37,145 nt of DNA from Promethearchaeota archaeon (GTDB taxonomy: Archaea; Asgardarchaeota; Lokiarchaeia; Sigyniarchaeales; SOKP01): the NCBI GenBank assembly GCA_004524535.1, contig SDNY01000001.1:1-37145 (forward strand), read 5' to 3'. The stretch's first letter is position 1. The number at the start of each line of letters is the position of its first letter. Under the pieces are notes generated by a model. The model ran no database searches. It was not told the origin of the DNA and saw nothing but the letters and a program-made list of their open reading frames with translations. Positions 10,303 through 36,825 of this stretch are shown piece after piece. The translations under genes and the position numbers were made by a program.

Positions 10303-11613
10303 ATGGTCAAAGTAGCATTCTGGCAAAATTCTGATTGCTGGGGATGCCACCAGAGCTTAATCGATTTACATTTACAGCTCTTACCGGTACTTCCAGCTTT
10401 AGAGATTGTCTATTGGCCAGCAGTAGTTGATTTCAAATATGATTCTTTGGAAGCTAGAGCTGACGGTGAAATTGTAGTTGGATTCATTGAAGGAAGTCTT
10501 AGAACTAAACAAGATGTTGAAGGTACCAAATTAATGCGTAAAAAATGTAAAATAATCATTGCTTTCGGGTCTTGTTCATGCTACGGAAATGTACATGGAT
10601 TAGCTAACCAATGGAGCAAAGAAGAACTAGTAAGGCGTAAATTTTCTGAAGTTGAAAGTATAGCTGATGGAAGTGGTGGAGAACCTACCCAACATATGCC
10701 TGGATTCGAAGATAAGATTGTTAACGTTGATGAAATTATCAAGGTTGATGCATATATTGCAGGATGTCCACCAAGATCAGAGCAGATCTTTGCTGCTATA
10801 GGATTTTTGTTAGGACAAAAACCATTTCCTATGAATGATCTTTCTTTTTGTAATGATTGCGCATTAAATCAATCCGGATGTCTCTTAGATGAAGGTAAAT
10901 TATGCTTTGGTCCAATAACCAGCATAGGATGTTCTTTAAAATGTCCTAATAATGGCAATCCATGTGTGGGTTGTATGGGACCAGCAAAAACAGTATCAGC
11001 ACGTGCTTCAAAATTAAAAGAGATGACTCAGAATATCGCTTCAGCTAGCTCAGGTGATAAAAAGAGTATAAATGAATTTCTATCACTATTTCTAAACGTG
11101 CCTCTAATGGCCGGTTTTGATTTATCAGCGGATATTTTAAAACAAGTCAAAAAGCGTGGAATACCAGAAACTCCATTAGCAAACTTACCCCCTGATACAG
11201 AAAGTATTGCTTCTAACATATTAGGATATTTAAGAGATAATAGAGACTTTACTGATATCTCAACTGTTTGCGATACTTGTGATAGAATTATTGGGAGTAA
11301 ATCAACAATGACAAAAGTGAAACGAGACTATGAAGGGCTTCCAAATTTAACTGATTGTTTGATTGAACAAGGTTATATTTGTATGGGGCCCGTAACTAAA
11401 GCTGGCTGTGGTGCCTTATGCCTAAAAGTTAACGCTCCTTGTACTGGCTGTTATGGTCAAACTGAATGGAATGTTAACCAAGCAGAAAGGTTTGCTGACA
11501 CGGTTATTAAAGGATTTAATGTGAGTTTATCCAAAGAGGAAATACTTGCACAAGTTAAGGATCATGTCGGCACTTTTGAAAAATTTACATTCGCATCAAG
11601 AAAAGGAGGCTAA
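10303..11613 (+). CDS. vhuG: F420-non-reducing [NiFe] hydrogenase small subunit with duplicated Fe-S domain
   Basis: This is the electron-transfer subunit of a group 3c (Mvh/Vhu) hydrogenase, passing electrons from H2 toward heterodisulfide reductase. The proximal-cluster site is seen at NSDCWGCHQS (C12, C15), GSCSCYGNVHGLANQ and AGCPP. A C-terminal cysteine block for the other clusters occurs twice. Residues 183-232 run from FCNDC through CFGPITSIGCSLKC to CVGCMGP. Residues 323-386 run from VCDTC through CMGPVTKAGCGALC to CTGCYGQ. The usual protein is about 300 residues; here it is 436. The second block is the more MvhG-like. vhuA starts 5 nt after the stop, and its AGGAGG ribosome site lies in the last codons. 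Confidence 0.92.
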   Translation: MVKVAFWQNSDCWGCHQSLIDLHLQLLPVLPALEIVYWPAVVDFKYDSLEARADGEIVVGFIEGSLRTKQDVEGTKLMRKKCKIIIAFGSCSCYGNVHGLANQWSKEELVRRKFSEVESIADGSGGEPTQHMPGFEDKIVNVDEIIKVDAYIAGCPPRSEQIFAAIGFLLGQKPFPMNDLSFCNDCALNQSGCLLDEGKLCFGPITSIGCSLKCPNNGNPCVGCMGPAKTVSARASKLKEMTQNIASASSGDKKSINEFLSLFLNVPLMAGFDLSADILKQVKKRGIPETPLANLPPDTESIASNILGYLRDNRDFTDISTVCDTCDRIIGSKSTMTKVKRDYEGLPNLTDCLIEQGYICMGPVTKAGCGALCLKVNAPCTGCYGQTEWNVNQAERFADTVIKGFNVSLSKEEILAQVKDHVGTFEKFTFASRKGG

Positions 11614-11618
11614 AAAAA

Positions 11619-12926
11619 ATGGTGAAAGAAATAGAAGTAGAGCCCATAACTCGATTAGAGGGACATGGTGGAATGAGAGTCGTTCTTGGAGATGATGGAA
11701 AAGTTCAAGATGTACAATTTAATGTCCAATCGACAAGATTCTTTGAAAAATTTGTTGAAGGACGATATTGCGAACAGGTTCCAAGAATAACTCCAAGAAT
11801 CTGCGGAATTTGTCCAATACCACATCATTTAACTCCAACAAAAGCAGTGGAAGATGCTTGGGGTGTTCAGATTCCTGAACCCGCAAGAAAATTAAGACAA
11901 CTCTTAATTAATGCTAAACAATACAGTTCGCATTTAATTCACTTCTACGCTTTAACTGCACCAGATTTCCTATTAGGACCTTTTGCTGATCCTGCTTTAA
12001 GAAATGTGGTTCATGTGATTAATAAAATGCCGGATGTTGGAGCTATGGCATTAAAAATGATGGATTTCGGACAGAGACTATGTGCTGCCGTTGGTGGTAA
12101 AGCAATTCACCCTATTGCTGCAATAGTCGGTGGAATGAAAAAGCCTTTGGATGAAGATGTTCGTGATAAATTCCTTGGTGTAATTGACGATCAAATTGAA
12201 ATGACTAAGAAGACTGTAGATATTGCGCTAAAAGTTATAGATGATTATTGGGATGTCGTAGCTAATGTTGGTGTTGTCCCAACATATTATGTTGGAATGA
12301 CAAAAAATGGTGTACATGACATCTATGAAGGCGATATTCGGATTGTCTCTCCAACTGGAGAAAAAACAGATTATGCTCCACAGAGATACTTAGAGGCATT
12401 AGGTGAGCATATTCCAGAACATTCATATGCGACTCATATGTACTATAAACCAGCTGGTTATCCTGAAGGAATTTATAGAGCAAACTGCTTAGCTATGATA
12501 AACTGTGCCGACAAAATGGCAACACCTTTAGCAGATGAGGCATTGAAAGCGATGCGAGAAAAGATTGGAACGAATGTAATCCATCATACCTTTGCATATC
12601 ACTGGGCACGAATAATTGAAACGGTTGAGGCAATTGAAATGATTGCAACTCTCCTAAAAGATCCAGATATCGTTAATCCTGACTGTAAAACACTTGATGT
12701 TCAACCCAGAGAAGGAAATGGTGTAGGTATAACTGAAGCTCCACGAGGACTTCTTTTATATAACATCTGGTCGGATGCCGAAGGTATTTGTAAAAAGTTA
12801 AATCTTTTAGTCGCAACAAACCACAATATCGCAGGAATCGAAAAATCGTTAATGCATGTGGCTAAACAAGTATTTGAAGACAAAGCTTTAGATGGATTAA
12901 AATTACCAGATCCATGGATAAAATAA
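11619..12926 (+). CDS. vhuA: [NiFe] hydrogenase large subunit, C-terminally split
   Basis: This is the catalytic subunit of the group 3c hydrogenase. The N-terminal active-site motif RICGICPIPHH gives C62 and C65. The family blocks EPITRLEGHGG, HFYALTAPDFLLGP and EAPRGLLLYNIW are present. The protein stops at 435 residues with no DPCxxCxxH. That motif is supplied by the next gene, vhuU, 37 nt downstream, as in the Vhu enzymes of methanococci. A strong AGGAGG precedes the ATG. Confidence 0.95.
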   Translation: MVKEIEVEPITRLEGHGGMRVVLGDDGKVQDVQFNVQSTRFFEKFVEGRYCEQVPRITPRICGICPIPHHLTPTKAVEDAWGVQIPEPARKLRQLLINAKQYSSHLIHFYALTAPDFLLGPFADPALRNVVHVINKMPDVGAMALKMMDFGQRLCAAVGGKAIHPIAAIVGGMKKPLDEDVRDKFLGVIDDQIEMTKKTVDIALKVIDDYWDVVANVGVVPTYYVGMTKNGVHDIYEGDIRIVSPTGEKTDYAPQRYLEALGEHIPEHSYATHMYYKPAGYPEGIYRANCLAMINCADKMATPLADEALKAMREKIGTNVIHHTFAYHWARIIETVEAIEMIATLLKDPDIVNPDCKTLDVQPREGNGVGITEAPRGLLLYNIWSDAEGICKKLNLLVATNHNIAGIEKSLMHVAKQVFEDKALDGLKLPDPWIK

Positions 12927-12963
12927 ACTAAATCAAAATTAATATAGAGTGTGAATAAAAAAA

Positions 12964-13113
12964 ATGAGTGATATACCAGAAGGAGTAGTAAATATCTTAG
13001 AAATGATTGTCCGCTGTTATGATTGCTGACTATCGTGTGCCGCTCACATCACTGTAGTTGATGAGGATGGTAAAGAAATTTACTCTCGTGAATTACACGT
13101 TGGTTTAGGATGA
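12964..13113 (+). CDS. vhuU: selenocysteine-containing hydrogenase subunit VhuU
   Basis: Reading UGA at 13027-13029 as selenocysteine gives a 49-residue protein with a clear large-subunit tail: residues 13-19 EMIVRCY, then D20-C21-U22-L-S-C25-A-A-H28. The canonical motif is D-P-C-x-x-C-x-x-H, so Sec replaces the first nickel-binding Cys, and the usual Pro is Cys. The tail after H28 matches the peptide normally removed on maturation. The next in-frame UGA (13111-13113) is taken as the stop because it falls inside the SECIS core. If it were also Sec, the frame would end at TAA 13123-13125. Conventional gene callers miss this gene. A split Sec VhuU is known in methanogens and Lokiarchaeota. Confidence 0.85.
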
Positions 13114-13171
13114 AATATCCAATAAAAATTATAGATTGGATATGACTGCCCTTGCATGGGTTAAAACCAAC
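13099..13171 (+). promoter_or_regulatory. SECIS element candidate, eukaryote-like
   Basis: An outer helix pairs GTTGGTTT (13099-13106) with AAACCAAC (13164-13171). An inner 9-bp helix pairs ATATCCAAT (13115-13123) with ATTGGATAT (13135-13143), and an A-rich 11-nt loop begins AAAAA. At the base of the inner helix, ATGA (13110-13113) faces TGAC (13143-13146). This is the arrangement of the non-Watson-Crick UGA/GA quartet of eukaryotic SECIS elements, though one A is left unpaired. A small CCC/GGG hairpin may occupy 13149-13160. Published work reports such eukaryote-like structures in Lokiarchaeota. It overlaps the end of vhuU. Confidence 0.65.
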
Positions 13172-13221
13172 AAATTTGAAAAAAATAAAATGGAACAAAC
13201 TCAAAAAAAAAGTGAAAAAAA

Positions 13222-13755
13222 ATGACATTACCATTAGGTATAGATTTTGAATTTAGGAAGCAAATTATGGATGTACACATTGGATCTGATAAGATTAAAT
13301 ACTGTTATCAATGTAATCGATGCACTGACAATTGTCCTGTCGCATCTGTCGCAAATCCCTTTTATCATGAAGTGACTAATTGGTTTGATCCAAGATTGAT
13401 TGTATTAGGCACACTTCTAGGATATAAAGATATTGTGATGGCCTTAGCAGGCTCTAAATCAGCTCTTATTCCTTGGGGTTGCACCGTTTGTGATACCTGC
13501 GACGCAGTTTGTCCTCAAGCGATTGAAGTTACTGAAATTATTGGTCTAGCTAAAAATATAACTTCTGGTGCAGGACTTGCACCTGATAATATCGTAGCTC
13601 AAGCAAAAACCGTTTTTGATACCGCTAAAGCGATTCCATCACAACCCGCGATCGAGAGAAGACGAGAACAAATGGGCTTACCAGCCGTAGCTGCACCAAA
13701 TGTTAATGAAGTGCAGACTTTATTAAAAAATATAGGTGCGGATAAAAAATTATAA
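13222..13755 (+). CDS. hdrC: heterodisulfide reductase subunit C
   Basis: HdrC carries two [4Fe-4S] clusters that link the flavin-bifurcating HdrA to HdrB. Both cysteine sets are visible: C28/C31/C34/C38 (CYQCNRCTDNCP) and C87/C90/C93/C97 (CTVCDTCDAVCP). It is soluble, 177 residues, with normal length. It follows the SECIS element by about 50 nt, and its stop is 15 nt before hdrB, so the pair is co-transcribed with the hydrogenase. HdrA must be encoded elsewhere. Confidence 0.95.
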   Translation: MTLPLGIDFEFRKQIMDVHIGSDKIKYCYQCNRCTDNCPVASVANPFYHEVTNWFDPRLIVLGTLLGYKDIVMALAGSKSALIPWGCTVCDTCDAVCPQAIEVTEIIGLAKNITSGAGLAPDNIVAQAKTVFDTAKAIPSQPAIERRREQMGLPAVAAPNVNEVQTLLKNIGADKKL

Positions 13756-13770
13756 ACGGAGGGTAAAAAA

Positions 13771-14637
13771 ATGACAGAATATAAAATGTTTGAGGGTTGT
13801 GTGATTGGTAACAGAATTCCATTTATAGAAGCATCTTCCAGAAAGGTTCTTGATAAAATTGGAGTCCAGACATCACAAGCTCCATTTTCTTGTTGTCCAG
13901 ATCCCACTGGAATGAAGTGTTTTGATAATACAGCTTGGCTTGCTATGGGCGCTCAAAACTTATGTTTAGCGGAATCAGAAGATAAACCAATCATTTCTTT
14001 ATGCAATGGTTGCGCAAACACTTTACGAGGCGTCCAATATCAATTAAAACATGATTCCAATAAAAAAGAGGCGATTAATAAAGAATTAGCCAAAATTGGA
14101 AAGGAATATAAAGGTTCAATTGATGTAAGGCATTTTGTTGACGTTCTTAAGGAAAATTTAAGTGCTATTAAGAGTGCTGTTACGAAACCAATGAGCAATC
14201 TGAAAGTAGCTTGCCATCCTGGCTGCCACTATATGCGACCTGTAGAATGGATGGAATCTGATGATCCATTACGTCCTGTAAATTTGAAAGAGATTGCTGC
14301 TGCTACCGGTGCTAATGTAGTTGATTATGACGAGTTAGCATTATGTTGTGGAAATGCTGTGGCTGGTCCGTTTCCGGATCATGGCGATGCAATTCTAAAA
14401 AAGAAATTAGACTCAGTTAAAAAAGCAGGTGCTGACGTGATTGTTGTGAATTGTCCTGCCTGCTTTCAACGATTTGATACATCCCAGAGAGATCTATCGA
14501 AGAAATTCGATGGAGAGTATAATATTCCTGTACTTTATATAACAGAATTAATTGCTTTAGCAATGGGAATTAGTTCTGAAGATATTGGGATTAAGAATCA
14601 TCGTGTTCGACGAGGTACAGCAATAGAAAATCTCTAA
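13771..14637 (+). CDS. hdrB: heterodisulfide reductase subunit B
   Basis: HdrB reduces the disulfide substrate at noncubane [4Fe-4S] clusters bound by two CCG domains. The first is seen at C10, C41/C42, C78 and C81 (SCCPDP, LCNGC). The second is at C148, C152, C192/C193, C228 and C231 (CHPGC, LCCGNAVAG, NCPACF). Length 288 is typical. In a non-methanogen the natural substrate may not be CoM-S-S-CoB. The GGAGGG upstream is a strong ribosome site. An unbroken T-run follows the gene. Confidence 0.95.
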   Translation: MTEYKMFEGCVIGNRIPFIEASSRKVLDKIGVQTSQAPFSCCPDPTGMKCFDNTAWLAMGAQNLCLAESEDKPIISLCNGCANTLRGVQYQLKHDSNKKEAINKELAKIGKEYKGSIDVRHFVDVLKENLSAIKSAVTKPMSNLKVACHPGCHYMRPVEWMESDDPLRPVNLKEIAAATGANVVDYDELALCCGNAVAGPFPDHGDAILKKKLDSVKKAGADVIVVNCPACFQRFDTSQRDLSKKFDGEYNIPVLYITELIALAMGISSEDIGIKNHRVRRGTAIENL

Positions 14638-24890: not shown

Positions 24891-26693
24891 ATGAAATTAG
24901 TAAACCCGTATAAGCCATCTGTATATCAACTGGAACCTCGGAAAAGGCTAATTTGGATAATCTCTCTTATCGGATGTGGTATTTATGCAATTATCGTATT
25001 TATAATTTTATTTATACTTCAGATACCAAATGAATTAATGATTATTACGATCTATACTTATATGGTTATTGGACCATTAACTATATATTTGTTATGGCTT
25101 GTTTTTTATAGATGGAAAATAAAAAAATGGCCTCGAAACAAGAAAGTATTTGGTGAACCAATTCATTATACATTACTTTTAATATCGATTGGTATCTGTG
25201 TTATTAACTGGGCTGCTTATTGGAATACGGGTCTTGATAGCATTTGGTTAATTTTTGCATCATGGATTTATATTCTTAGTGATAACTTATTACTTGGGAC
25301 TATAATCTATACTGTTGGTGCTTCAGCTATTACACCTGCTTTTACTGAAGAATTCTTGAAGTCTTTCCCTAGCATTATTGCTTTTTTTGTAGTTTTACAA
25401 AGGGATAGAAATCTGGAGGAGAAGAGAAAGGGATTGTTAGGAAATGAGTTAGGAGGATTTTTATTTGGATTAGTAATTGGAATAACATTTGAGATTTTAG
25501 AGCTAATATATTATCTATTAATTACAATATCCTCAGGAGGAGGTGCTTTTGATATATATTTTCAAGTTACCGTTAGAGATTTTTCTCCACTTCATATACT
25601 TGGAGGTGCAATTGGTGGATTTGCGGCGGGCAGGGCTGAAAGACTTCGTTATGAGCGAGGAGAAGAGGATTTACCTATGAAAATTCAAATAATCAATTTT
25701 ATTAAACGTTTTTTACCATTATGGCTTATCCCCGTTTCGATCCACTTTCTCTGGAATAGTTCAAGTGTTTGGATTTATTTAATAATTCTAGCGATAGATG
25801 GTGATATATTGTTAAATTTAATTCTTGAGATGATCGTAATCGTTACATTAAGTGCATTATGCTTTTTTATATTACTTTTACTATTAAGATGTGCTAATAG
25901 AATTACTGAGAAAACTTATCGATGCTCTGAAACAGGGATTATCGTTGCAAAGGAAGGGGATATTTGTTCCTTATTTAGTGACAAAAAAACCGATGTTGAA
26001 CCAACAAAAAAACCTTTAGATAAAGCTTTTATTGCTCAAGACACAGAAATTGTTTGTCCAAATTGTGATAAGGTAAATATAAGAGGAGCAAATTTCTGCA
26101 TAAATTGCGGTTTCCAAATAGCTAGTTATTATTATTGTCCAAATTGCAGTAAGGCTAATAAATTTGGAATAAAATTTTGTATACACTGTGGATTTCAAAT
26201 ACAACAATTAAAAACACCCCAAATTTTTCCTATGTCAAATGAAAGACCCTCTAAAGCATTACTCGTCATTTCGTTAATTGTAACTATAGGTTTTCTATTT
26301 TATATTGTATTATTTGCAATTTTAGCTTTGCTGATATATGGCATTTTTGGATTTTTCTATTTAGCTTTTCAAATAAGCATAGAGATAGTAGCTGCAGTAG
26401 TAATGTTTTATGCTATTATAACTCTCTTTAAAATGAGGAAGAATTATAATGGAAGAAAAAATATCTGGTCATGGTATCTTTTAATTTTTAATTTAATTGG
26501 AATATTTGGACTGCTTGTAATTTATGGTATTTTAGGTGTGATTTATGGAATTATTGCATTCACGCTCGGCTATATTACGTTAATAACGGGGCTTGGATTC
26601 CTTTTTCTAGCTGGAGCCACATTAGTTTTTATATTTCTTTTAAGAACAATATTAAAATCTGATGAAATGCTTCAATATCAAACTAAAAATTAA
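24891..26693 (+). CDS. PrsW-like intramembrane protease with double zinc ribbon and extra membrane domain
   Basis: The first ~345 residues form a multi-helix membrane domain with PrsW/CAAX-protease-type residues: E153/E154 and K157 (FTEEFLKS), E201/E204 (FEILE), H235 (PLHILGG) and H285 (IHFLWN). Two CxxC...CxxC zinc ribbons follow (about 389-412 and 418-438, ending CINCGFQI and CIHCGFQI). A second hydrophobic domain of about four helices (450-590) ends the protein. The ribbons probably face the cytosol and could bind a partner that triggers cleavage. The substrate is unknown. The three-part architecture is unusual. Confidence 0.75.
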   Translation: MKLVNPYKPSVYQLEPRKRLIWIISLIGCGIYAIIVFIILFILQIPNELMIITIYTYMVIGPLTIYLLWLVFYRWKIKKWPRNKKVFGEPIHYTLLLISIGICVINWAAYWNTGLDSIWLIFASWIYILSDNLLLGTIIYTVGASAITPAFTEEFLKSFPSIIAFFVVLQRDRNLEEKRKGLLGNELGGFLFGLVIGITFEILELIYYLLITISSGGGAFDIYFQVTVRDFSPLHILGGAIGGFAAGRAERLRYERGEEDLPMKIQIINFIKRFLPLWLIPVSIHFLWNSSSVWIYLIILAIDGDILLNLILEMIVIVTLSALCFFILLLLLRCANRITEKTYRCSETGIIVAKEGDICSLFSDKKTDVEPTKKPLDKAFIAQDTEIVCPNCDKVNIRGANFCINCGFQIASYYYCPNCSKANKFGIKFCIHCGFQIQQLKTPQIFPMSNERPSKALLVISLIVTIGFLFYIVLFAILALLIYGIFGFFYLAFQISIEIVAAVVMFYAIITLFKMRKNYNGRKNIWSWYLLIFNLIGIFGLLVIYGILGVIYGIIAFTLGYITLITGLGFLFLAGATLVFIFLLRTILKSDEMLQYQTKN

Positions 26694-26761: not shown

Positions 26762-28171
26762 CTATTCATTCAAGAGTCCATATCTTTTAAGTCCTTCTCT
26801 CATATCGGCTTGAAATGGTCCTGGAGTGCCCTCTATAAATGCTTCAACAATATCCTGGTTTTTAACCTCTTTTGAAACTCTTTTTTTTGCTTTCTCTTCC
26901 GCAAGTGAGGAAATTGCCATTCTCGCCATAGATTGAAATTGTGGGGGCGATAATTTTATTAATTCATCAAAAATCCTCGCAGTCTCGGGATTCCAGTTTA
27001 ATCCCTTTTTTTTCTTTTCCTTTGGTTTGGCAGTGTCAATACCAAATTCCCGACTGGTTATTAGATCATCAATATAATCATTCAATGATTCAACATACCT
27101 AGGAGCTTCTTCTTTATCAAGAATAACTGCTTTTTTCCCCCATTGTTCACAATAATTACATTCATCACACATTGAAATACAGTCTTGCTTTTTGAAGAAT
27201 TCAATAAATCCATCGAGTTTAGTATTATCTATTATTAATTTCGATTTAGGCTCTTTTACAAACGTTTCAGTCATTTTAACATTAGGATCTTTTTCAACTC
27301 CAACAGTCATAGAAAAACCTTGAATAATATCTACAAGGTTTCCTTCATATTTACGAGATGAAAATGCCTTGACAGCTCGAAGTATCCATTCAGTACTCAT
27401 ACGGCGTCCAGCAATTTTGAAATTTTCAATTCCAATAGCCTCATAATGAGATAAATCCTCGGGGCGCACCCATCGTGCTTTAACTACTTCAGTAGGATTT
27501 GAAAATTTAATGACACTGCAATTAAGGATACAATAATCAATATATACCCCTCCGAGTTGGTGGGAAGATTGAGAAGAATGCCCTACAATATTATAATGAT
27601 AATATCTAAAAGGACATTGATATAAACAACCATCAGTTAAAAGGAGATTAATATTACATTTAACTGCTTTTTTAATTTTCTTCAATGTCTTAAAATCGCG
27701 ATTAATCATTACATCGGGGGTAATCTCATCAGCACCCATTGCTTCATAGAATTTTGCCCGATTAACACTGTTAACGTGAGCAATTGTAGAGACACGAATT
27801 TTCAACTTGGGAAATTGTTCTTTTATTAAGCGGATTAAAAAAGGAATAGTCACAATTACATTATCCGACCCAATATCGCTTATCCATTGAAGGTAATTTA
27901 GCAACTCTTTATGATACGCCGCATCATATTCCATATTACCCATACATGGCGCATTAAGCAAATAAGAGAATTTCATTTTTTTTTCATGAACATTCTTAAT
28001 ATATTCCGCAATTTGTTCTTCCTTAATATCCTTTAAAAGAAATGAAGGCCGTCCATGGCCAACAATAGAGGATTTTGAAGCTCCATAGATCTCTCTTACT
28101 GGATATTTAGCTAATTCATCGATGAGTTTAAAATCCCAATTTGTCGCAACGGTAAATTGAATTCTTTTCAC
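26762..28171 (-). CDS. U32 peptidase-like Fe-S protein (UbiV-like) with C-terminal PCP_red-like domain
   Basis: The barrel begins FTVATNWD as in U32 proteins. Four cysteines, C182/C186 (DGCLYQCPFRYYHYN) and C214/C218 (YCILNCS), match the [4Fe-4S] ligands of that family. A second cluster C331/C335/C338/C341 (CISMCDECNYC) may bind Fe-S or zinc. Residues ~391-469 form a helical PCP_red-like domain also found on three neighbours. U32 relatives UbiU/UbiV hydroxylate ubiquinone precursors without O2; others hydroxylate RNA. The start is GTG at 28169-28171, as no ATG lies near. It is the last gene of the cluster. Confidence 0.8.
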   Translation of the reverse strand: MKRIQFTVATNWDFKLIDELAKYPVREIYGASKSSIVGHGRPSFLLKDIKEEQIAEYIKNVHEKKMKFSYLLNAPCMGNMEYDAAYHKELLNYLQWISDIGSDNVIVTIPFLIRLIKEQFPKLKIRVSTIAHVNSVNRAKFYEAMGADEITPDVMINRDFKTLKKIKKAVKCNINLLLTDGCLYQCPFRYYHYNIVGHSSQSSHQLGGVYIDYCILNCSVIKFSNPTEVVKARWVRPEDLSHYEAIGIENFKIAGRRMSTEWILRAVKAFSSRKYEGNLVDIIQGFSMTVGVEKDPNVKMTETFVKEPKSKLIIDNTKLDGFIEFFKKQDCISMCDECNYCEQWGKKAVILDKEEAPRYVESLNDYIDDLITSREFGIDTAKPKEKKKKGLNWNPETARIFDELIKLSPPQFQSMARMAISSLAEEKAKKRVSKEVKNQDIVEAFIEGTPGPFQADMREGLKRYGLLNE

Positions 28172-28279
28172 CTTAAAATAAAATTACTATTCCTATATAA
28201 TAATTTATAGCATAAATTAAAAATGATGAAAAAAAATATTTTCAATAGATTATCATGTATTAATTTCTTGATTTCCTCA

Positions 28280-28666
28280 TTATTTACTCACTTTTCCGTG
28301 AGCTTTAGCATTTAATGGCAATAAAGGAGCACAAGCCATGAGCTTAGACATATCTCCTTCGACTACATAAGTTCCAGTCATAGTTTCTTGAATAGGATCT
28401 GATTCACCCGAAAGAGTTTTTTTCAATGTGCTGAAGTCAGTTTTATGGGATATTTTTGGAGCATCTGGACCTGAATATTCACCCATCCCCCATTTTATCT
28501 GGTCTTTTTCAACAAATTGCCAATAATTCATCTCTTCTCTATCTGTTATAATGAATTGGAATGTCAATGGCGCAAGTGCTCCCAATAAGGGAGCTAATTC
28601 TGGCAGCTCATTAAATGCTTTCATATATTCTGTAAGATATGCTTCCCATTCTTCTTTTGTATCCAT
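28280..28666 (-). CDS. SCP2 sterol-carrier-like lipid-binding protein (UbiT-like)
   Basis: The 128-residue single-domain protein has the SCP2 pattern: LTFQFIITDREEMNYWQFVEKDQIKW, then ADFSTL-type DFSTLKKTLSGESDPIQETMTGTYVVEGDMSKLM. The fold encloses a hydrophobic cavity for lipids. In O2-independent ubiquinone synthesis the SCP2 protein UbiT works with U32 proteins UbiU/V, and here it sits directly before a U32 gene. A perfect GGAGGTGA at 28675-28682 precedes the ATG, suggesting high expression. Confidence 0.85.
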   Translation of the reverse strand: MDTKEEWEAYLTEYMKAFNELPELAPLLGALAPLTFQFIITDREEMNYWQFVEKDQIKWGMGEYSGPDAPKISHKTDFSTLKKTLSGESDPIQETMTGTYVVEGDMSKLMACAPLLPLNAKAHGKVSK

Positions 28667-28762
28667 CTAAATTTTCACCTCCTTTCTTTTTCATTTGTTA
28701 AATATTTTTAATTTTCATAATTTATAACAACCTTACCGTTGGGACATAAATTGGAATCCAAT

Positions 28763-28858
28763 TTAGTAGGTCAATTCTTGGAGATATACAAAATTTCTTG
28801 GGGCAAAAAAACCTACAACATTTATTCCAACATCCGAGAATAATATATCCTTATTCAT
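28763..28858 (-). CDS. possible tiny ORF or leader (31 aa)
   Basis: Within the 277-nt gap before the SCP2 gene, an ATG-started frame encodes MNKDILFSDVGINVVGFFA followed by 12 more residues. It reads like the start of a folded protein cut short. It may be a remnant or a leader. A TATA-like AAATTATATGC lies upstream at about 28876-28886, so SCP2 may have its own promoter. Confidence 0.25.
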   Translation of the reverse strand: MNKDILFSDVGINVVGFFAPRNFVYLQELTY

Positions 28859-28943
28859 CACTATTCGTATCCAGCATATAATTTATTAATTAGAATTGAA
28901 AATTATTTTTATAGAAGTAAAATAATTTTTACATTCTTTAACA

Positions 28944-30113
28944 TCATTTAACTTCTAAACCAGCTTTAGCACCATCTGATAATAAATTTATCATACTTTC
29001 AGTGTAATCATTTTCAATCTTGTAGAAAAGGCCATCACGACCAAACGTAATACTACAAATAAATTTATGGATCTTTGTAATAGTTGGAATATTTTCGACA
29101 TATTTTTTGATCAATGGATGAAAATTCACTGGAGCTTGCTCTTCTTCAGGAAAACCGATTCCAAAACAGATTCGCTCTACCCTATCACTATCCCAGTTAA
29201 AAGTGTAATAGATAGTCAAAGCCTCACAACATTTTTTCATTACTTCCGGCGGGCCAATTTCGAAATTTAGCTCTTTGAGTAAAGTTTCATAAACTTCTTG
29301 TCTAGCTTTTGACGGATCTTTAATCATGAAGTAGATATTTGTAGAATTATTACGAAAATCAAGACCAAAGACACTAAAAACATTAAGTCCATGTTTTTCA
29401 AAATAATCTCTATGTTTATTAATACTATTTGGGATTGTAGACATTGAATATGTTGGTTCAAATGGACTAGGGACGATGAACGGCCAGATTTTAGACAAAC
29501 CAGTCCTTACATCCAAATCAACACCCCACCCCAATATATCAAAGGTTGATAAAATCTCTGGAATCATCTTATGAATTGGATGCCCATTTTTTTCAATTAA
29601 TCCTTCATTAATTGCAGTTGTGTAAGGATCTGGATTGTGAGGTATCATATGCTCTAAATATCGTACTGAAATGTCTCTTTTTTCTTTTGGTTTTGTGGTT
29701 GTTCGGATTGTAACCGTCGAACCAGTATAAAAATCCTTGTAAGCATTTAATACATTCCATATCGCTTTTTCATCACATATAACTTCTGCAAGTTCCCCTA
29801 TTTTTAATATGTGATCAACCAATTGTTTTAGATCTGTATTAAATTTATATGTACACTTTATCTTTGCAAGATATTTGTCAAGATCAACATTTAACCTTTT
29901 CAAATCCTCTTTCATCATGTCTTGAAAAGCTGGTGGGGTAACTTCAAACATAGAGATAACAAGATCTACCTCAGCTACAGCTTTTCCATTTCGCTCCATA
30001 CATTTCTTCTCTGCAGCTTCACGAACTACGGGGCCAACTATAGGTCTAACTGTTTCTGGAGTTCCCGCTACAATTTCTTCATAAAGCTTTTTAACTTCTG
30101 GTTGCCATTCCAT
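28944..30113 (-). CDS. ABBA-fold aromatic prenyltransferase with N-terminal PCP_red-like domain
   Basis: Residues ~90-389 align along their whole length with NphB/CloQ (Orf2) prenyltransferases, which attach isoprenoid chains to aromatic rings in the cytosol. Landmarks are DPYTTAINEGL with GHPIHKMI (162-184), IPNSINKHRDYFEKHGL (227-243), LDFRNNSTNIYF (251-262) and YYTFNWDSDRVERICF (302-317, with the pyrophosphate-binding-type R315). Residues 1-80 are a PCP_red-like helical domain shared with neighbours, which is not part of known members. The family is known from actinobacteria and fungi. Substrates here are unknown. GAAGGT precedes the ATG. Confidence 0.82.
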   Translation of the reverse strand: MEWQPEVKKLYEEIVAGTPETVRPIVGPVVREAAEKKCMERNGKAVAEVDLVISMFEVTPPAFQDMMKEDLKRLNVDLDKYLAKIKCTYKFNTDLKQLVDHILKIGELAEVICDEKAIWNVLNAYKDFYTGSTVTIRTTTKPKEKRDISVRYLEHMIPHNPDPYTTAINEGLIEKNGHPIHKMIPEILSTFDILGWGVDLDVRTGLSKIWPFIVPSPFEPTYSMSTIPNSINKHRDYFEKHGLNVFSVFGLDFRNNSTNIYFMIKDPSKARQEVYETLLKELNFEIGPPEVMKKCCEALTIYYTFNWDSDRVERICFGIGFPEEEQAPVNFHPLIKKYVENIPTITKIHKFICSITFGRDGLFYKIENDYTESMINLLSDGAKAGLEVK

Positions 30114-30182
30114 TTTTAATATTTACCTTCTTTTTCTGAAATTTTTTTTATTTAATTCTTTCATTTTTTTTAAGATTTTTAA

Positions 30183-31595
30183 TTAATTTTGATATTTAGC
30201 AAATTGAATTTGGCCCATTTCATTAAATCCTTCTGGATTATTTAAGCCAATTCCGGGTGCGAACCATCCTGAATTTTTTTCACAATATTCTCTTATTATT
30301 TGAAATAAATCGAATTCTTTGATTTTTGGAGAGATATAAAATTTAGGTTTTAACAGGTTCTCTCCATTTTTTAACACTCCATCTTGTACTGCGATGCGCT
30401 GGAGAGGGGTATGTGGGTAAATTCTCATTCCTGAAAAAATAACCACATCATTATCACCTTCCCACACCTCTCCCCTAAAATTTTCGATTGTTTCTAATTG
30501 ATTAAATGAAGCACGAACGGTTTCAACAGTTTCATCTGGTCCTCCAACAATTATATGAATTAATTGTTCAATTTCTAAATCAAAACATCTTTTTGAAGTA
30601 AGGATAGCATCATCTGGAGTCCTCTTTTGCTTTATATTTCTCAAAATCTCCTCTGATAAAGATTCAAAACCTGTATCAAGATGAGTAACCCCACTTTCCT
30701 TCATGAGGGGCATTAAATCAACAAATTCTTTATTGGGATCGTAATTTGCCCCCCATTTTAAATCGATTTTGCGTTTTATTATTTCTTGGCATATCTCTTT
30801 TAGATTTTGGTAATTTAAATTGAGAACACCATCAACAAAAAAAACATTATTAATTCCTAAATTATTTACAATAAATTCAAGTTCATCAGCTATTCTTTTG
30901 GGAGATCGATACCGAACGGTCGAACCTTCAATATATCTATAACTACAATAGATACATTTATGAGGACAACCACGCTTTGTTTGAACATTTCCCCAAATAG
31001 CACCTGTTTTATTCATACAATAGATATATTCATTATTATCTACCAACTCTCTAGCAGGATTTGGCAGATCATCAAGATTTTTAACGCGCCATGGTGGTTT
31101 TTGATGATAATTTCCTTTTCCATCTATAAAACATACACCTTTTTCTATTTTTCTAGGATCTTCATCCTTTTTAATATGTTTTAAAATTTCAATAAAAACA
31201 TATTCACCATCTCCAACGACACCAATATCGTGGTTTAAATCCCTAAGAATCTCTTCTGAAAAAATTGAGAAACCAGCACCACCTAAAACTATTGGAATAT
31301 CTGGTTCAGCAATCTCTTTTATATACTGAATAATACGCTTAGCTGGTAAGTAAAAAAATAGATTTGCTGGATAAGTTGTTGAATCAATATTACGAATAGA
31401 GATACCTATTAATTGAGGATTAAAATCATCTATTGCTTTTGTGATATCATTCTTTGAATCGTTACTAAGAGTTAAATCCCTTAGCATTACTTCATGTCCT
31501 TTAGAAAGAAGATAGGACGCAATATATGCTTCTCCTATAGGTGGGACCATTACATGTACTAGTTCCCGACTCCCAGAAAATATTAATACTCGCAT
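30183..31595 (-). CDS. B12-binding-domain radical SAM protein
   Basis: Residues 1-~135 are a cobalamin-binding-like Rossmann domain (VMVPPIGEAYIASYLLSKGHEV, VLGGAGFS, VGDGEYVF) without the DxHxxG histidine. Residues ~200-400 form a radical SAM barrel with C210/C214/C217 (KRGCPHKCIYC). The layout matches BchE-like and related class B enzymes that methylate, cyclise or join carbon skeletons. The ATG at 31595 with GAGGTGA just before it is preferred to an in-frame GTG at 31604. It lies 69 nt before the prenyltransferase gene. Confidence 0.85.
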   Translation of the reverse strand: MRVLIFSGSRELVHVMVPPIGEAYIASYLLSKGHEVMLRDLTLSNDSKNDITKAIDDFNPQLIGISIRNIDSTTYPANLFFYLPAKRIIQYIKEIAEPDIPIVLGGAGFSIFSEEILRDLNHDIGVVGDGEYVFIEILKHIKKDEDPRKIEKGVCFIDGKGNYHQKPPWRVKNLDDLPNPARELVDNNEYIYCMNKTGAIWGNVQTKRGCPHKCIYCSYRYIEGSTVRYRSPKRIADELEFIVNNLGINNVFFVDGVLNLNYQNLKEICQEIIKRKIDLKWGANYDPNKEFVDLMPLMKESGVTHLDTGFESLSEEILRNIKQKRTPDDAILTSKRCFDLEIEQLIHIIVGGPDETVETVRASFNQLETIENFRGEVWEGDNDVVIFSGMRIYPHTPLQRIAVQDGVLKNGENLLKPKFYISPKIKEFDLFQIIREYCEKNSGWFAPGIGLNNPEGFNEMGQIQFAKYQN

Positions 31596-31641
31596 AATCC
31601 TCACCTCTCTCTTATTCGCAATTTATTGAATCCTTTATTAA

Positions 31642-33036
31642 TTATTCAATTATTAATTCTTCACGAGAATTATCTCTCTTATGGTCATGATCATTTTCAT
31701 GCCAACAATATGAAAATGGTCCGAATATATCACCCGTTTCACATTCAGCATGCACGCGACAACCTCCACCACAATACTGAAGATGATGACAAGATGCACA
31801 TTTTCCATTACGTTTTTTTCTGTCTCTGATGTCTTTAAATAGTTGGGAGTTAAGTACATCTTCAAAGCTGTCCTCTAAAGCATTACCGAGAGTGGTTTTT
31901 GTTGGATAGCCACATGGATAAATAGTACCGTCCACCCCAACACCCATCATTGTTCTGCATGCCAAGCATCCTATCCCCCATTCAATTGTAGCCAATTCCT
32001 TATCATCTCTTATTTCCTCCACAAAGGGGGTCATCTCATATATTTCATAAATGGGTAATGTACCTGCTTCGCCTTCTCTTATTTTTTCAATAGCATGCTT
32101 GAATTTGAAATCATATAATTTTTTATATTCCTCTTGACTGAGTCCGATTTGATCCCAAAATTCAGATGCTCGATTTTGTTTTACTACAGCTCTAAAAAAT
32201 GTTTCTGCCCCCCATTCTTCTGATAATGCCTTAAGTTTATCTAGCTCATTAATGTTTTGCTTCATTATTGTAATTGAAGTACATACAAATAATCCATATT
32301 TCAAGCAATTTTTTATTGCTTTTTCTGCATATTCTAATGAATTAGTAAATCCACGGATTTCATCATTTTTTTTGGGATCTGCGCTTTCAAAACTAACAAA
32401 CACATGACTCATATCATTATGCTTAGCCATTTTGGCAAATTTCTCATCAAATTTTACACCGTTGGTTATAATAGCATGAATATAACCCTTTTCTTTACAA
32501 AATTTCATAATTTCGGAAATATCTTCGCGTAAAGTAGGTTCACCTCCAAACCATATATAACATCCATGTCTTCCTTGTTTTTGTAATCCTGTTTCCAAGT
32601 TTTCTATTATTTGGAACCATTCTTTTGTTGAAAGCTCAGGGCGAGGTATATAATCATCTACAGCACAATGTAAACATTTCATATTACATCTATCAGTAAG
32701 ATACATTGCAAAATGTACATTACCTGGACGAAAAGCTCTTATAATATTTTCCCAACTAACTTTGATTCGATCCATGATATCCTTCAGTACAATATACCGT
32801 TCAACATCAACTCCCAGTGATGTCAAATCCTCAACCGTCGTTGGTTTAAATGCTTCAGGAGTTACATCAAATATCCCAGTGACCAAATCAGCTTCATTGA
32901 TATTGGAACCGTTCCGTTCATTGCATTTATTCTCGGCAGCTTTTATTATCATCGGCTTTACAGAAGGACGAATTCCTTCGGGAATTTTTTCTATAATTTT
33001 ATTAAATAATTCTTCTGTTTTTTTTTCCCAATCCAA
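31642..33036 (-). CDS. SPASM radical SAM enzyme with N-terminal PCP_red-like domain (second paralog)
   Basis: Residues 1-80 are the shared PCP_red-like domain (WEKKTEELFNKIIEKIPEGIRP, then VTPEAFKPTTVEDL). The SAM cluster ligands are C117/C121/C124 (TDRCNMKCLHC), and WFGGEPT binds SAM. The SPASM region (GIGCLACRTM, IYPCGYP, GKCASCHHLQYCGGGC) would bind one or two more clusters. The end is His/Asp-rich (CWHENDHDHKRD). Such enzymes modify peptides or mature heme-like cofactors. The start is TTG at 33034-33036 with AAGGTGA upstream. The upstream paralog's stop codon lies within that site, implying coupled translation. Confidence 0.85.
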   Translation of the reverse strand: MDWEKKTEELFNKIIEKIPEGIRPSVKPMIIKAAENKCNERNGSNINEADLVTGIFDVTPEAFKPTTVEDLTSLGVDVERYIVLKDIMDRIKVSWENIIRAFRPGNVHFAMYLTDRCNMKCLHCAVDDYIPRPELSTKEWFQIIENLETGLQKQGRHGCYIWFGGEPTLREDISEIMKFCKEKGYIHAIITNGVKFDEKFAKMAKHNDMSHVFVSFESADPKKNDEIRGFTNSLEYAEKAIKNCLKYGLFVCTSITIMKQNINELDKLKALSEEWGAETFFRAVVKQNRASEFWDQIGLSQEEYKKLYDFKFKHAIEKIREGEAGTLPIYEIYEMTPFVEEIRDDKELATIEWGIGCLACRTMMGVGVDGTIYPCGYPTKTTLGNALEDSFEDVLNSQLFKDIRDRKKRNGKCASCHHLQYCGGGCRVHAECETGDIFGPFSYCWHENDHDHKRDNSREELIIE

Positions 33037-33042
33037 AAATTA

Positions 33043-34416
33043 TCACCTTGATTTGCAATTTTCATGTTCATGGTCATCTTCATGCCAACAGAAAGGAAGA
33101 GATTCTAGAAAATCACCGGTTTCGTTCTCTGCGTGGCATCTGCAACCACCCCCACATAATTCGAGGTGATGACAAGATGCGCACCGCCCTTTTATATTTC
33201 TATCTCTAATATCTTTGAAAAGCTTTGATTCCATTATTTCATTGAAATCTTGCTTTAGCACATTGCCCAAGGTTAATTGGGATGGATAATCGCATGGGAA
33301 GAAATCTCCATTAATATCAATACCTGAGACTGAACGACATGCTTGACATCCTACCCCCCATTCTAAAGCTGTTCGCTCTTCATCGTTGACAGGGCATTCC
33401 ATGAAAGGTACCATGTCATACATAAGAAACTTATGGATACCACGCACTTCCCCTTTTCTGATTGCATCAGTAATTTTACTATATTTAAAGGTATAAAATT
33501 GCCGGTATTCATCCAAATTTAACCCTATTTCATCCCAGTTTATATCAGCAGATCTTTGTTTAATAATTGCTCTGAAATATACTATTACACCCATAGATTC
33601 TAATCTGTCTTTTATTTTTTCCAACTCATCAAAATTTTCTTTTTGCGCAGTTGCGGTACAAATAGTAAGATTACCATATTTTAGAGATAATTTAATTGCT
33701 TTTTCAGCTGCTTCATATGCGTTTGGAACGCCTCTAATCTTCGCAGCTCTTTCAGGATCCACGCTATCGTAGCTAATAAAGACATGACTGATTTTAACCT
33801 CAGCACATAATTTTGCAAGTTCCTCATCAAATAACATACCATTTGTAGAAACAGCTTGATAATATCCCTTTTCACCACAATACCTTATCAAATCATTGAG
33901 ATCCTTGCGAAGAGTAGGCTCTCCACCAAACCATATATAACAACCTCGACGACCACGTTTTCGTAATGTTTCCTCGACATTTTCGATAATGTCAATCCAT
34001 TGTTCTGTTGATAATTCTGGACGATTCTCTATCACTGAAGCACCACAATGGCGGCATTTTTGGTTGCATCGATCAGTTAGATACATTGTGAAATGATAAA
34101 CTCCTGGGATAAATGCAGCGCTTACATCGTCCCATGAACGTGCATGTGCCTTCATAATTTCTGATAATTGTATATACCGATCTGTATCTATTCCTAAATC
34201 TTTCAAATCATTAACTACAGTTGGTTTAAACGGTTCCGGTGTAATCTCAAACAGTGCGGATAATAAATCATCTTTTCCTACAAATCTAGAATTCCTAAGC
34301 CTTGCTGTTTTTTCAGCGGTTTCATGCAACATAGGTTTAACTGCTGAACGAAACGCCTCAGGAACCTGATCTGTGATTTTCCCGAACAAATTCTCAACTT
34401 CTTGTTCCCATTCCAT
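33043..34416 (-). CDS. SPASM radical SAM enzyme with N-terminal PCP_red-like domain (first paralog)
   Basis: It is closely similar over its full length to the gene that follows it, with identical spacing of the SAM ligands C117/C121/C124 (TDRCNQKCRHC), WFGGEPTL, and the SPASM cysteines (GVGCQACRS, FFPCDYP, GRCASCHHLELCGGGCRC). Residues 1-80 are the PCP_red-like domain. The tail CWHEDDHEHENC is metal-binding-like. The pair arose by tandem duplication and may act as a heterodimer or on successive steps (inference). It is the first gene of the six-gene run. An A/T-rich, TATA-like TTATAAAATTATT lies about 75 nt upstream. Confidence 0.85.
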   Translation of the reverse strand: MEWEQEVENLFGKITDQVPEAFRSAVKPMLHETAEKTARLRNSRFVGKDDLLSALFEITPEPFKPTVVNDLKDLGIDTDRYIQLSEIMKAHARSWDDVSAAFIPGVYHFTMYLTDRCNQKCRHCGASVIENRPELSTEQWIDIIENVEETLRKRGRRGCYIWFGGEPTLRKDLNDLIRYCGEKGYYQAVSTNGMLFDEELAKLCAEVKISHVFISYDSVDPERAAKIRGVPNAYEAAEKAIKLSLKYGNLTICTATAQKENFDELEKIKDRLESMGVIVYFRAIIKQRSADINWDEIGLNLDEYRQFYTFKYSKITDAIRKGEVRGIHKFLMYDMVPFMECPVNDEERTALEWGVGCQACRSVSGIDINGDFFPCDYPSQLTLGNVLKQDFNEIMESKLFKDIRDRNIKGRCASCHHLELCGGGCRCHAENETGDFLESLPFCWHEDDHEHENCKSR

Positions 34417-34527: not shown

Positions 34528-35241
34528 TCATTTTTTTCCCTCCCAAATGACATATTCATTAAAATCAGAAATATAATTAATTTTGAGATGAGGATAGGAA
34601 TTATTAGAAAGATAAATCCCTGGTTTTTCAAAAAGAGAATACTTCGCTAAATATAAAATTCTTTTGAAATAACAATTTAGTTTGAACTCAATTTTCCTAT
34701 AAGAAATCCTTTTTTGAAAAGTGTTATTTAAATATCTCTTGTTCCTCAAATTTATAAAGAAACTATTGATTCTCTCATTCTTTTTATAATTTCTATCAAT
34801 TTTTCTTATGAGTTCATCATCTATATACTGTTTTATTTGACTACTGAGATAAAAATAATAATGTGTTTCTTTAGACATAAAAGAGACTGTATCTAAATAA
34901 CGAAATGCTTGAGTATCACCATAAAATAATACTTTTTTAACATAATGATAACAGCAAGAATCAATAAAACAATAGATACTGATTATAATATAAATATCAC
35001 TTAATTGACCAATACTCAACGGAATAATTTGTTGCCCTTTAGGTAAAAACCATAAAATCTTTATATAAGGTAGATTCGGAATAAAAAGTGAATTACCACA
35101 TTTAAAGTAATCCTTTAATGAAGAAGACAAAGAGTTTATATTACTTAAAAACGTGTAGATCAATGTAACAAGGAAAAATGAAGAAAGAAACAGTAGAATC
35201 AAGAGTATTTTTAGTTTTTTAAATATTTTAATATTATACAT
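34528..35241 (-). CDS. hypothetical protein with N-terminal membrane anchor
   Basis: A hydrophobic segment at residues 9-32 (LKILLILLFLSSFFLVTLIY) could be a signal anchor. A second moderately hydrophobic stretch lies near 74-95. The remainder is basic, Tyr- and Asn-rich, with no motif I recognise. Composition is even more AT-driven than its neighbours, as in a fast-evolving or recently acquired gene. It lies 112 nt upstream of the radical SAM pair on the same strand. Confidence 0.5.
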   Translation of the reverse strand: MYNIKIFKKLKILLILLFLSSFFLVTLIYTFLSNINSLSSSLKDYFKCGNSLFIPNLPYIKILWFLPKGQQIIPLSIGQLSDIYIIISIYCFIDSCCYHYVKKVLFYGDTQAFRYLDTVSFMSKETHYYFYLSSQIKQYIDDELIRKIDRNYKKNERINSFFINLRNKRYLNNTFQKRISYRKIEFKLNCYFKRILYLAKYSLFEKPGIYLSNNSYPHLKINYISDFNEYVIWEGKK

Positions 35242-35334: not shown

Positions 35335-36825
35335 CTATTCATCCATTGTTTTAGTAAATTTCAATGATGATGTAAGAAACAAGGGCGCTGCATGTATTAA
35401 AAATAGTGTGTTTAAATTTTGAATATTAGTTCCAGTAATAAATCTCTTTTTGTAATTAATAACGTTATAAAAATAAGACTTTTTAGCTTTTTTAAATGCT
35501 TCAACGACTTCTAAAAACGAATTATATTTTAATTTTATTCCAAAACTCTCTGGAGATTCATGAGCAGGAGAACCAGGAAAAATATAGTAAGCCTCATTCA
35601 TTATTGTAATTGGCTTGAAATTTGATTTGCCATATTTTAATATACATTTCGATGCAAAAATAAAATCTTTCATAACATCAATAAAGGATTGAAAAGGATA
35701 ACCCATTGTCAACCAAATTCTTAATTTCGTTAGGTTTAAATTCGCATTTTTTATAGTATCTTTAATTTGATTTAAAGGGAAGTTAAATGTTGGATCGCAA
35801 ATTTTTGCTATTTTTTGATGCACACGATGAGAAGTTGTTCGAGGAGAAATACTAATTGATGAATCTCTCCGAGTAAATGTTTTAGAAAACATTTTCCACA
35901 TTTCTTTCGGAAAGGGAAGCCGCCAAATCTCCAAATCTCCACCTATATCAAGATTCTCTTTTTGCAACAGCTTAAGTATTTGCTCCCAATATTTTAAATT
36001 AGAAGGATAAGCACCATGGCCAAAAAAAATACTTGGAACTTTAAATTTGTTAAGAACATTGTTTATATCTTCTATAACCTTTTCTGGACTCCTAAGAACA
36101 ACATTGTTTCGCCCAGCTAACAGTTGTTGAGCTCTTTGACCTCCTCCACAAAGAGGACAATTAAATCGACATCCTCTTCCAATAGGGATAACGCCAGAGA
36201 TTCCCATCATCTTTCTGCTATTTTCAAAATAATATTTAGCATTTTTTAGGAGTGAAAAATTTGTAAAATTCAAATCATCTAAAGTCTTAGCTACATAGGA
36301 AATAGGATTTTCTTTAATATGTTTTGAAGAATCTTGATATGATAAATTGGGAACAGAATCTAATAATTTATTATGATTTACCTTTTGAATATATTGTAAA
36401 AATGGAGTTTCACCATCTCCACTAATGATCGCATCGATTTCTTTAAAGTACTTTAAAATATCATTACGATAATATGAGGCACTTAGACCTCCAAGAATAA
36501 TTTTAACATTTGAATTTACTGATTTTACAATTTTGGCAATCTCAATAACTGCATGCGAGTTATGTATCCAATGTAAATCAATTCCACATATATCAAAATT
36601 AATAGATTTGAGATAGTCTTTTAATGACCAATTAATATCTAAGAATTGCTCTAATGGATAATTTATAATTTTAACTCCAAAGCCCTCTCTTTCAAGTAGA
36701 TCGGCAATGGCAAAAACACCCATTGGAATGAAAAGGTACGATCCTCGAATAAATCTGGCCTTTTTACCATAATTATGTTTTAACGTACGAGGAGGATGAA
36801 TAAAAATTATGTCGTAGCTTTTCAA
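35335..36825 (-). CDS. B12-binding-domain radical SAM protein, second type
   Basis: The N-terminal part is a cobalamin-binding-like Rossmann domain (FIPMGVFAIADLLEREGFGV, ILGGLSASYY, ISGDGETPF). In place of DxHxxG it has DLHWIH around residues 83-88. The radical SAM ligands are C219/C223/C226 (GRGCRFNCPLC). It differs clearly from the 30183-31595 protein and has no PCP_red-like domain. The start is TTG at 36823-36825 with a GGTAGG upstream. Its link to the downstream cluster is unproven, since a small unknown gene separates them. Confidence 0.8.
   Translation of the reverse strand: MKSYDIIFIHPPRTLKHNYGKKARFIRGSYLFIPMGVFAIADLLEREGFGVKIINYPLEQFLDINWSLKDYLKSINFDICGIDLHWIHNSHAVIEIAKIVKSVNSNVKIILGGLSASYYRNDILKYFKEIDAIISGDGETPFLQYIQKVNHNKLLDSVPNLSYQDSSKHIKENPISYVAKTLDDLNFTNFSLLKNAKYYFENSRKMMGISGVIPIGRGCRFNCPLCGGGQRAQQLLAGRNNVVLRSPEKVIEDINNVLNKFKVPSIFFGHGAYPSNLKYWEQILKLLQKENLDIGGDLEIWRLPFPKEMWKMFSKTFTRRDSSISISPRTTSHRVHQKIAKICDPTFNFPLNQIKDTIKNANLNLTKLRIWLTMGYPFQSFIDVMKDFIFASKCILKYGKSNFKPITIMNEAYYIFPGSPAHESPESFGIKLKYNSFLEVVEAFKKAKKSYFYNVINYKKRFITGTNIQNLNTLFLIHAAPLFLTSSLKFTKTMDE

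Follow-up and report, generated by a model that had tools for sequence, protein, structure and literature searches.

A conserved Lokiarchaeal gene cluster of ABBA prenyltransferase, radical SAM, U32 and SCP2 proteins: a candidate oxygen-independent route to a prenylated aromatic lipid

The window analyzed here, the whole stretch of 37,145 nucleotides from position 1 of contig C51 (accession SDNY01000001.1, assembly GCA_004524535.1), comes from a Lokiarchaeal genome of 3.66 Mb that is 99% complete. Its minus strand carries a gene cluster encoding an aromatic prenyltransferase of the ABBA type, two radical S-adenosylmethionine (SAM) enzymes with SPASM domains (SP1 and SP2), B12-binding radical SAM enzymes, a divergent U32 iron-sulfur (Fe-S) protein (U32a), and an SCP2 lipid-binding protein. 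The block recurs in other Lokiarchaeal genomes, and four of its proteins carry copies of one small domain. We propose that the cluster encodes a docked, oxygen-independent accessory pathway that would make a small aromatic lipid, prenylated and probably hydroxylated, and we regard the case for this proposal as evenly balanced. A more far-reaching version, which we consider unlikely, is that a pathway new to science in Lokiarchaeia, its ABBA, SPASM, and U32 enzymes docked by a module resembling DUF2621, makes prenylated aromatic lipids of a new class, which serve as a redox carrier in hosts lacking the menaquinone and tetrapyrrole genes tested.

Conservation, Co-Occurrence, and Exchange of the Cluster

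A first-pass annotation made from the window had described six same-strand genes at 26762-34416 as a candidate anaerobic cluster for prenylated aromatics. All six open reading frames (ORFs) are present on the minus strand, and Pfam assigns each to the family proposed, always above the gathering score: two SPASM radical SAM enzymes (Radical_SAM/SPASM bits of 84.3/45.3 and 79.8/37), a B12-binding radical SAM enzyme, the ABBA enzyme, SCP2, and U32. The limits had been drawn too early. Neighbourhood comparison extends the conserved unit upstream to 36825 and brings in the genes at 34528-35241 and 35335-36825. The cluster proteins miss the NCBIfam equivalog cut-offs by clear margins and are thus not the enzymes that those models name.

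We searched 228 Asgard genomes for the component families and compared gene neighbourhoods at 16 loci. PTase_Orf2, the Pfam family of the ABBA enzyme, occurs in 14 genomes from six genera, in each case above the cut-off; thirteen belong to the family of the window and one (G083) to another family of the same class. SP1/SP2 occur in 15 genomes, 13 of which also encode ABBA (Fisher p = 3e-18, with shared ancestry ignored). Contig ends account for two or more of the three cases that break this pairing: the ABBA gene of G109 is cut by a contig end, and in G143 the contig breaks inside the B12 radical SAM gene. The third case, G153, is a genome that is 61% complete. Fourteen clusters in 12 Lokiarchaeal genomes encode SP1, SP2, and ABBA on the same strand. 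The linkage of the block exceeds chance, and its genes are conserved together in relatives, a point on which the first-pass annotation had staked its proposal alongside the ABBA and U32 assignments.

The usual gene order is a TIGR04190-like B12 radical SAM enzyme, a membrane protein of ~230 aa, SP1, SP2, the B12 radical SAM enzyme, ABBA, and SCP2 and/or U32 proteins. In a comparison set of 15 carriers of the cluster and 12 non-carriers (27 genomes), the TIGR04190-like gene is present in 14 carriers and two non-carriers. Two hydrophobic segments are found in most homologues of the small membrane protein, which is a possible membrane anchor. Genomes G155 and G156 each contain two diverged copies of the cluster, and a second product is possible. 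In these pairs (L021/L029 in G156, L022/L030 in G155), one copy is without the B12 radical SAM gene and has SP2 moved to the opposite end.

The SP1, SP2, and ABBA phylogenies are mutually discordant, and three copies from the same genus do not group together. The U32a of G083, although from another family, is 82-83% identical to that of the window, whereas copies from the same family as the window are only 74-77% identical. The discordant trees and the nearness of the G083 U32a suggest that the cluster has been exchanged horizontally as an accessory trait. A scan of genome contigs for the single ABBA protein, which reached close relatives only, returned three loci, all Lokiarchaeal, and all that a plasmid search returned were ABBA enzymes of Streptomyces with ~22-29% identity. 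The literature searched, which took in few subscription papers and no preprints, yielded no description of this gene set.

The ABBA Prenyltransferase

The assignment of the ABBA enzyme, made from profiles and a predicted structure, is firm because the profile match, the predicted fold, and the invariance of all five diphosphate-binding residues that we checked agree. The protein matches PTase_Orf2 (PF11468) with an E-value of 7e-51 (173.8 bits against a gathering score of 22). In a search against solved structures, the profile of the ABBA alignment had its best matches to FamD1, AmbP3, and AmbP1 at about 1e-58 (AmbP3 3e-58, AmbP1 6e-58), followed by EpzP (5e-49), NphB (6e-37), and CloQ (2e-19). 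The AlphaFold2 model (pLDDT 84.8) matches AmbP3 in Foldseek with a TM-score of 0.84-0.87, the target-normalised value reaching 0.87, and the 41 best matches are all Orf2-type ABBA enzymes. Residues K208, N259, Y261, R314, and K365 are invariant in 14 sequences and align with K119, N173, Y175, R228, and K284 of NphB, which we take to be its diphosphate ligands. The assignment in the first-pass annotation therefore stands under both profile and structure comparison.

ABBA is the fastest-changing core enzyme: at 43-60% identity to the window protein it falls below SP1/SP2 (63-77%) and U32a (74-83%), a pattern expected if the prenyl chain or the acceptor varied among carriers. A substrate that varies would suit a prenylated natural product that serves an ecological function (a signal, antimicrobial, or protectant) rather than a carrier. 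The accessory distribution, the mosaic gene histories, the presence of two diverged clusters in both G155 and G156, and the origin of the nearest solved relatives (AmbP1/AmbP3/FamD1 and EpzP) in natural-product pathways are also in keeping with such a compound. Against it, the conserved cluster shows no recognisable gene for transport, resistance, or regulation, and the free or fused SCP2 in nearly all clusters suggests a lipid-like product; we rate this explanation as rather unlikely.

A Domain Shared by Four Cluster Proteins

One domain of ~80 residues is common to SP1, SP2, ABBA (all N-terminal), and U32a (C-terminal). The nearest Pfam family is DUF2621 (PF11084), matched by 12 of 13 members with a best E-value of 5e-7 and scores mostly under the cut-off. 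The first-pass annotation, which overlooked the domain as the trait uniting these enzymes, had labelled it PCP_red (PF08369), and the label is not borne out: the score is 12.3 bits against a cut-off of 32.5, and two of the 13 members match, the better at an E-value of 0.019. A profile search of the Protein Data Bank with the domain yielded only weak matches at chance level.

In a profile search of 18 genomes, the DUF2621-like domain was found in 11 of 11 carriers and in none of seven non-carriers. All matches are in cluster-type proteins, with the exception of two short fragments in G108. These fragments flank a second copy of the small-membrane-protein gene (G108:C4:329604-331040; L123:4605-6041), beside an intact cluster, and are likely remnants of a duplicated cluster. 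The ABBA enzyme of G083 (L020) carries the domain at its C-terminus instead of its N-terminus. Because the domain is restricted to one pathway, sits on three unrelated catalytic types, and is free to switch ends, it is likely to be a docking or assembly tag for the enzymes of that pathway.

Radical SAM Enzymes

SP1 was found exclusively in carrier genomes. Its radical SAM motif, C117-X3-C121-X2-C124, and the SPASM cysteines C357, C360, C375, C412, C415, C421, C425, and C443 are present in 14 of 14 orthologues. In SP2, the GX4C auxiliary cysteine is kept in the window and in L020 (G083), whereas the remaining 12 aligned orthologues have lost it. The B12 radical SAM enzyme at 30183..31604 has the motif C213-X3-C217-X2-C220. 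Its nearest NCBIfam model is TIGR04072 (290.7 bits, below the cut-off of 360), and its gene is absent from four of the 14 clusters (L020, L021, L022, and L024). The enzyme probably provides a tailoring step, possibly a methylation.

The NCBIfam models nearest to SP1 and SP2 are AhbC, AhbD, and NirJ, with 107-137 bits (SP2 107-133) against cut-offs of 500-650. All three act on tetrapyrrole side chains, which they remove or decarboxylate (AhbD, PMC10452713; NirJ, PMC12505453). By analogy we infer that SP1 and SP2 carry out AhbD/NirJ-like side-chain chemistry on another substrate.

Tests of the ALTERNATIVES covered HemC, MqnA/D, NrfD, ETF-QO, chorismate synthase, and small ORFs. HemC is missing from 14 of the 15 carriers and present in 11 of 14 control genomes. 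This distribution disfavours a tetrapyrrole made de novo and bears on the alternative in the first-pass annotation, a prenylated or otherwise modified tetrapyrrole. The nearness of the AhbD, AhbC, and NirJ models to SP1/SP2 speaks for such a product, as do the BchE-like B12 radical SAM enzymes encoded just beyond the window. Yet most carriers are without HemC, the PCP_red call failed, and all SPASM scores lie far under the family cut-offs. We rejected the tetrapyrrole as a product and consider it exceedingly improbable.

SPASM enzymes often mature peptides, and several maturases of ribosomally synthesized and post-translationally modified peptides (RiPPs) are among the weak matches. The SPASM enzymes could accordingly act on a precursor peptide whose Tyr or Trp is then prenylated by ABBA. 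However, among 83 small-ORF candidates none was common to more than two loci, and ABBA is of the Orf2 type, only remotely like PatF and LimF, which prenylate cyanobactin peptides. A RiPP product was rejected for want of a conserved small ORF and seems to us very improbable.

U32 and SCP2 Proteins

The U32 assignment holds by profile (Table 1), with weak structural support. The best solved relative of U32a is the U32 protein 5d88 (profile E-value 9e-8), which is also the top Foldseek match from a poor AlphaFold2 model (pLDDT 49) and the sole match from that model on which we draw. The usual U32 cysteine motif is CX6CX15CX3C (PMC6747719, PMC11574389). U32a departs from this motif: its invariant cysteines are instead C76, C172, and C182-X3-C186-X27-C214-X3-C218 (CX3CX27CX3C), together with a second four-cysteine motif, C331-X3-C335-X2-C338-X2-C341. 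The divergent U32 type was found only in carriers; nearly all of the 27 genomes also have canonical U32 proteins, encoded separately. Among the E. coli proteins compared with the U32 family, TrhP is nearest (HHalign probability 68% over 132 columns). For UbiU, UbiV, and UbiT, HHalign gave a probability of at most 2% with every cluster family, in a weak test whose targets were single sequences. UbiU/UbiV orthology, not detectable by HHalign, was rejected.

A free SCP2 protein is encoded at eight loci, the window included. Loci without it have a short U32 relative (~350-390 aa) followed by a U32-DUF2621-SCP2 fusion of ~680 aa, the C-terminus of which aligns with the free SCP2 family over 137 columns; in L029 the contig stops short of the SCP2 part of the fusion protein. 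U32 and SCP2 domains are thus found together, either within one cluster or in a single fusion protein. Since SCP2 stays adjacent to U32 or joined to it, these gene arrangements indicate that it is an intrinsic part of the pathway.

U32 oxidases have been credited with O2-independent hydroxylation, for which prephenate is the likely oxygen source, though direct proof is missing (PMC11574389). U32a is predicted from its sequence to be an Fe-S oxygen-independent hydroxylase. The first-pass annotation had invoked oxygen-free quinone hydroxylation by U32/SCP2 proteins, the kind of chemistry known from the UbiU/UbiV/UbiT (UbiUVT) system; clusters in which a short U32 accompanies the U32-DUF2621-SCP2 fusion lend support to this part of its proposal, whereas no cluster U32 is recognisable as UbiU or UbiV. 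Chorismate synthase is encoded in 26 of the 27 genomes, and its near-universal presence makes an aromatic precursor and prephenate plausible.

The combination of a prenylated ring, anaerobic hydroxylation, and SCP2 follows the logic of ubiquinone synthesis with UbiUVT (PMC6747719). The first-pass annotation had proposed a quinone- or phenazine-like carrier. Such a compound would be a new benzoquinone-, naphthoquinone-, or phenazine-like molecule that carries electrons in the lipid phase for respiration or syntrophy. In its favour, the phenazine prenyltransferase EpzP ranks with the nearest solved relatives of ABBA. A replacement quinone is also conceivable, since MqnA/MqnD of the futalosine menaquinone pathway were found in none of the 27 genomes; the Men pathway (MenD/MenB) was not searched for. 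The same genomes, however, contain neither of the quinone-linked proteins NrfD and ETF-QO, and no cytochrome or other membrane oxidoreductase gene lies within the cluster. MqnA/D, NrfD, and ETF-QO are absent from carriers and non-carriers alike and are therefore uninformative about a novel carrier. The patchy accessory distribution (15 of 228 genomes) also speaks against a carrier. Known quinones, moreover, are prenylated by membrane enzymes of the UbiA type. We consider an electron carrier doubtful. Carrier function and an ecological role are two uses to which such a compound could be put, and the present data cannot separate them.

Proposed Pathway

In the docked, oxygen-independent pathway that we propose, ABBA would join an aromatic ring from the chorismate/prephenate branch to an isoprenoid chain, perhaps the geranylgeranyl that is standard in archaea. 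Ring hydroxylation without O2 would fall to one or more U32 Fe-S proteins, with prephenate as the probable oxygen donor, as proposed for characterised U32 oxidases, while SCP2 would hold the greasy intermediate. The paired SPASM enzymes might perform radical side-chain chemistry of the AhbD/NirJ type, e.g., an oxidative decarboxylation, and tailoring of the product, e.g., by methylation, could be left to the B12 radical SAM enzyme or enzymes. The DUF2621-like domains would dock SP1, SP2, ABBA, and U32 into one complex, possibly held at the membrane by the small two-pass protein.

Several points weigh against this pathway. ABBA enzymes typically take short donors of C5-C10, and a lipid product is hard to square with this. 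The structural model of U32a is of low confidence, no cluster U32 can be recognised as UbiU or UbiV, and the deviant cysteine spacing of U32a means that hydroxylation may be the wrong activity. The side-chain chemistry of the SPASM enzymes is argued by analogy, and docking by the DUF2621-like domain is a role that we infer from its distribution.

Characterised ABBA prenyltransferases are bacterial and fungal, mostly from aerobes; here, one is encoded together with oxygen-sensitive enzymes, in a conserved cluster of anaerobic archaea that stand near the eukaryotic root. If the proposal is true, the cluster represents an anaerobic way of making prenylated aromatics and a novel means of scaffolding radical SAM enzymes, in which a domain would tag the enzymes of one pathway. 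It would also provide a concrete molecule to seek in Asgard enrichments and would bear on the question whether Lokiarchaeia possess lipid-soluble electron carriers at all.

Gene Content and Surroundings

The members of the cluster and the copies of the shared domain are listed in Table 1.

Table 1. Cluster genes and DUF2621-like domain copies in the window, with positions and supporting matches.
Feature	Position	Strand	Match or remark
U32a: divergent U32 with C-terminal DUF2621-like domain	26762..28171	-	Pfam Peptidase_U32 51.7 bits (cut-off 22.4)
SCP2-domain lipid-binding protein, 128 aa	28280..28666	-	Pfam SCP2 27.5 bits (cut-off 21.3)
ABBA aromatic prenyltransferase with N-terminal DUF2621-like domain, 389 aa	28944..30113	-	Pfam PTase_Orf2 173.8 bits
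B12-binding radical SAM enzyme	30183..31604	-	Pfam B12-binding 59.5 bits, Radical_SAM 78.5 bits
SP2: DUF2621-like domain, radical SAM, SPASM	31642..33036	-	Pfam
SP1: DUF2621-like domain, radical SAM, full SPASM cysteine set	33043..34416	-	Pfam
Small membrane protein, two hydrophobic segments	34528..35241	-	No Pfam family; position conserved, homologues at 10 loci
Second B12-binding radical SAM enzyme, TIGR04190-like, cluster head	35335..36825	-	TIGR04190 249 bits (cut-off 500)
DUF2621-like copy 1, N-terminus of SP1	34165..34416	-	
DUF2621-like copy 2, N-terminus of SP2	32785..33036	-	
DUF2621-like copy 3, N-terminus of ABBA (C-terminus in L020)	29862..30113	-	
DUF2621-like copy 4, C-terminus of U32a	26762..27010	-	

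Just past the end of the window (L032:1-4688; C51:37000-41700), genes for a CDP-alcohol phosphatidyltransferase, a GT2 glycosyltransferase, and a LuxE-like ligase are divergent from the cluster. The nearest match of the phosphatidyltransferase is archaetidylinositol phosphate synthase, below the cut-off. One or more of these genes lie near the cluster in several carriers, and the GT2 gene occurs in 14 of the 15 carriers and three of the 12 non-carriers compared; the set is possibly a linked module for a lipid head group. After the LuxE-like gene, three tandem genes (L032:4759-9234) encode BchE/HpnJ-like B12 radical SAM enzymes, in a genome without HemC.

Within the window, positions 10303-14637 of the plus strand hold genes resembling hydrogenase small and large subunits, then Fer4 and HdrB-like (CCG) genes, a block similar to hydrogenase-heterodisulfide reductase systems. 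A multi-pass membrane protein with a central double zinc ribbon is encoded at 24891-26693 (plus strand), convergent with the U32a gene.

Comparison with Known Systems

In its profile, fold, and diphosphate-binding residues, the cluster ABBA enzyme is like AmbP3, AmbP1, FamD1, EpzP, and NphB. It differs from the solved ABBA enzymes in being archaeal, in its extra N-terminal DUF2621-like domain, and in sequence (only ~18-29% identical), and from known ABBA systems in adjoining radical SAM, U32, and SCP2 genes. SP1 and SP2 share the radical SAM and SPASM domains with AhbC, AhbD, and NirJ, and SP1 has two likely auxiliary cluster sites; both proteins nevertheless fall far below the cut-offs, begin with a DUF2621-like domain, and belong to hosts without HemC. 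The likeness of that domain to DUF2621 is a weak profile likeness, mostly below the gathering score. PCP_red is the tail of protochlorophyllide reductase, whereas the cluster domain is a repeated, pathway-restricted module.

U32a belongs to the same family as TrhP and RlhA, and its four-cysteine motif likewise ends in CX3C. Like RlhA (PMC11574389), it has extra conserved cysteines. It departs from both in having CX3CX27CX3C rather than CX6CX15CX3C and in its DUF2621-like tail. In the UbiT-UbiU-UbiV system, as in the clusters, U32 Fe-S proteins and an SCP2 lipid carrier stand beside a prenylation enzyme, and the free or U32-DUF2621-fused SCP2 echoes UbiT with UbiUV (PMC6747719). As a further likeness, some clusters contain two additional U32 proteins that could pair in the manner of UbiU and UbiV. 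The clusters differ in the lack of detectable orthology, in their cysteine spacing, in the SCP2-U32 fusion of some loci, and in the use of ABBA instead of UbiA-type prenylation.

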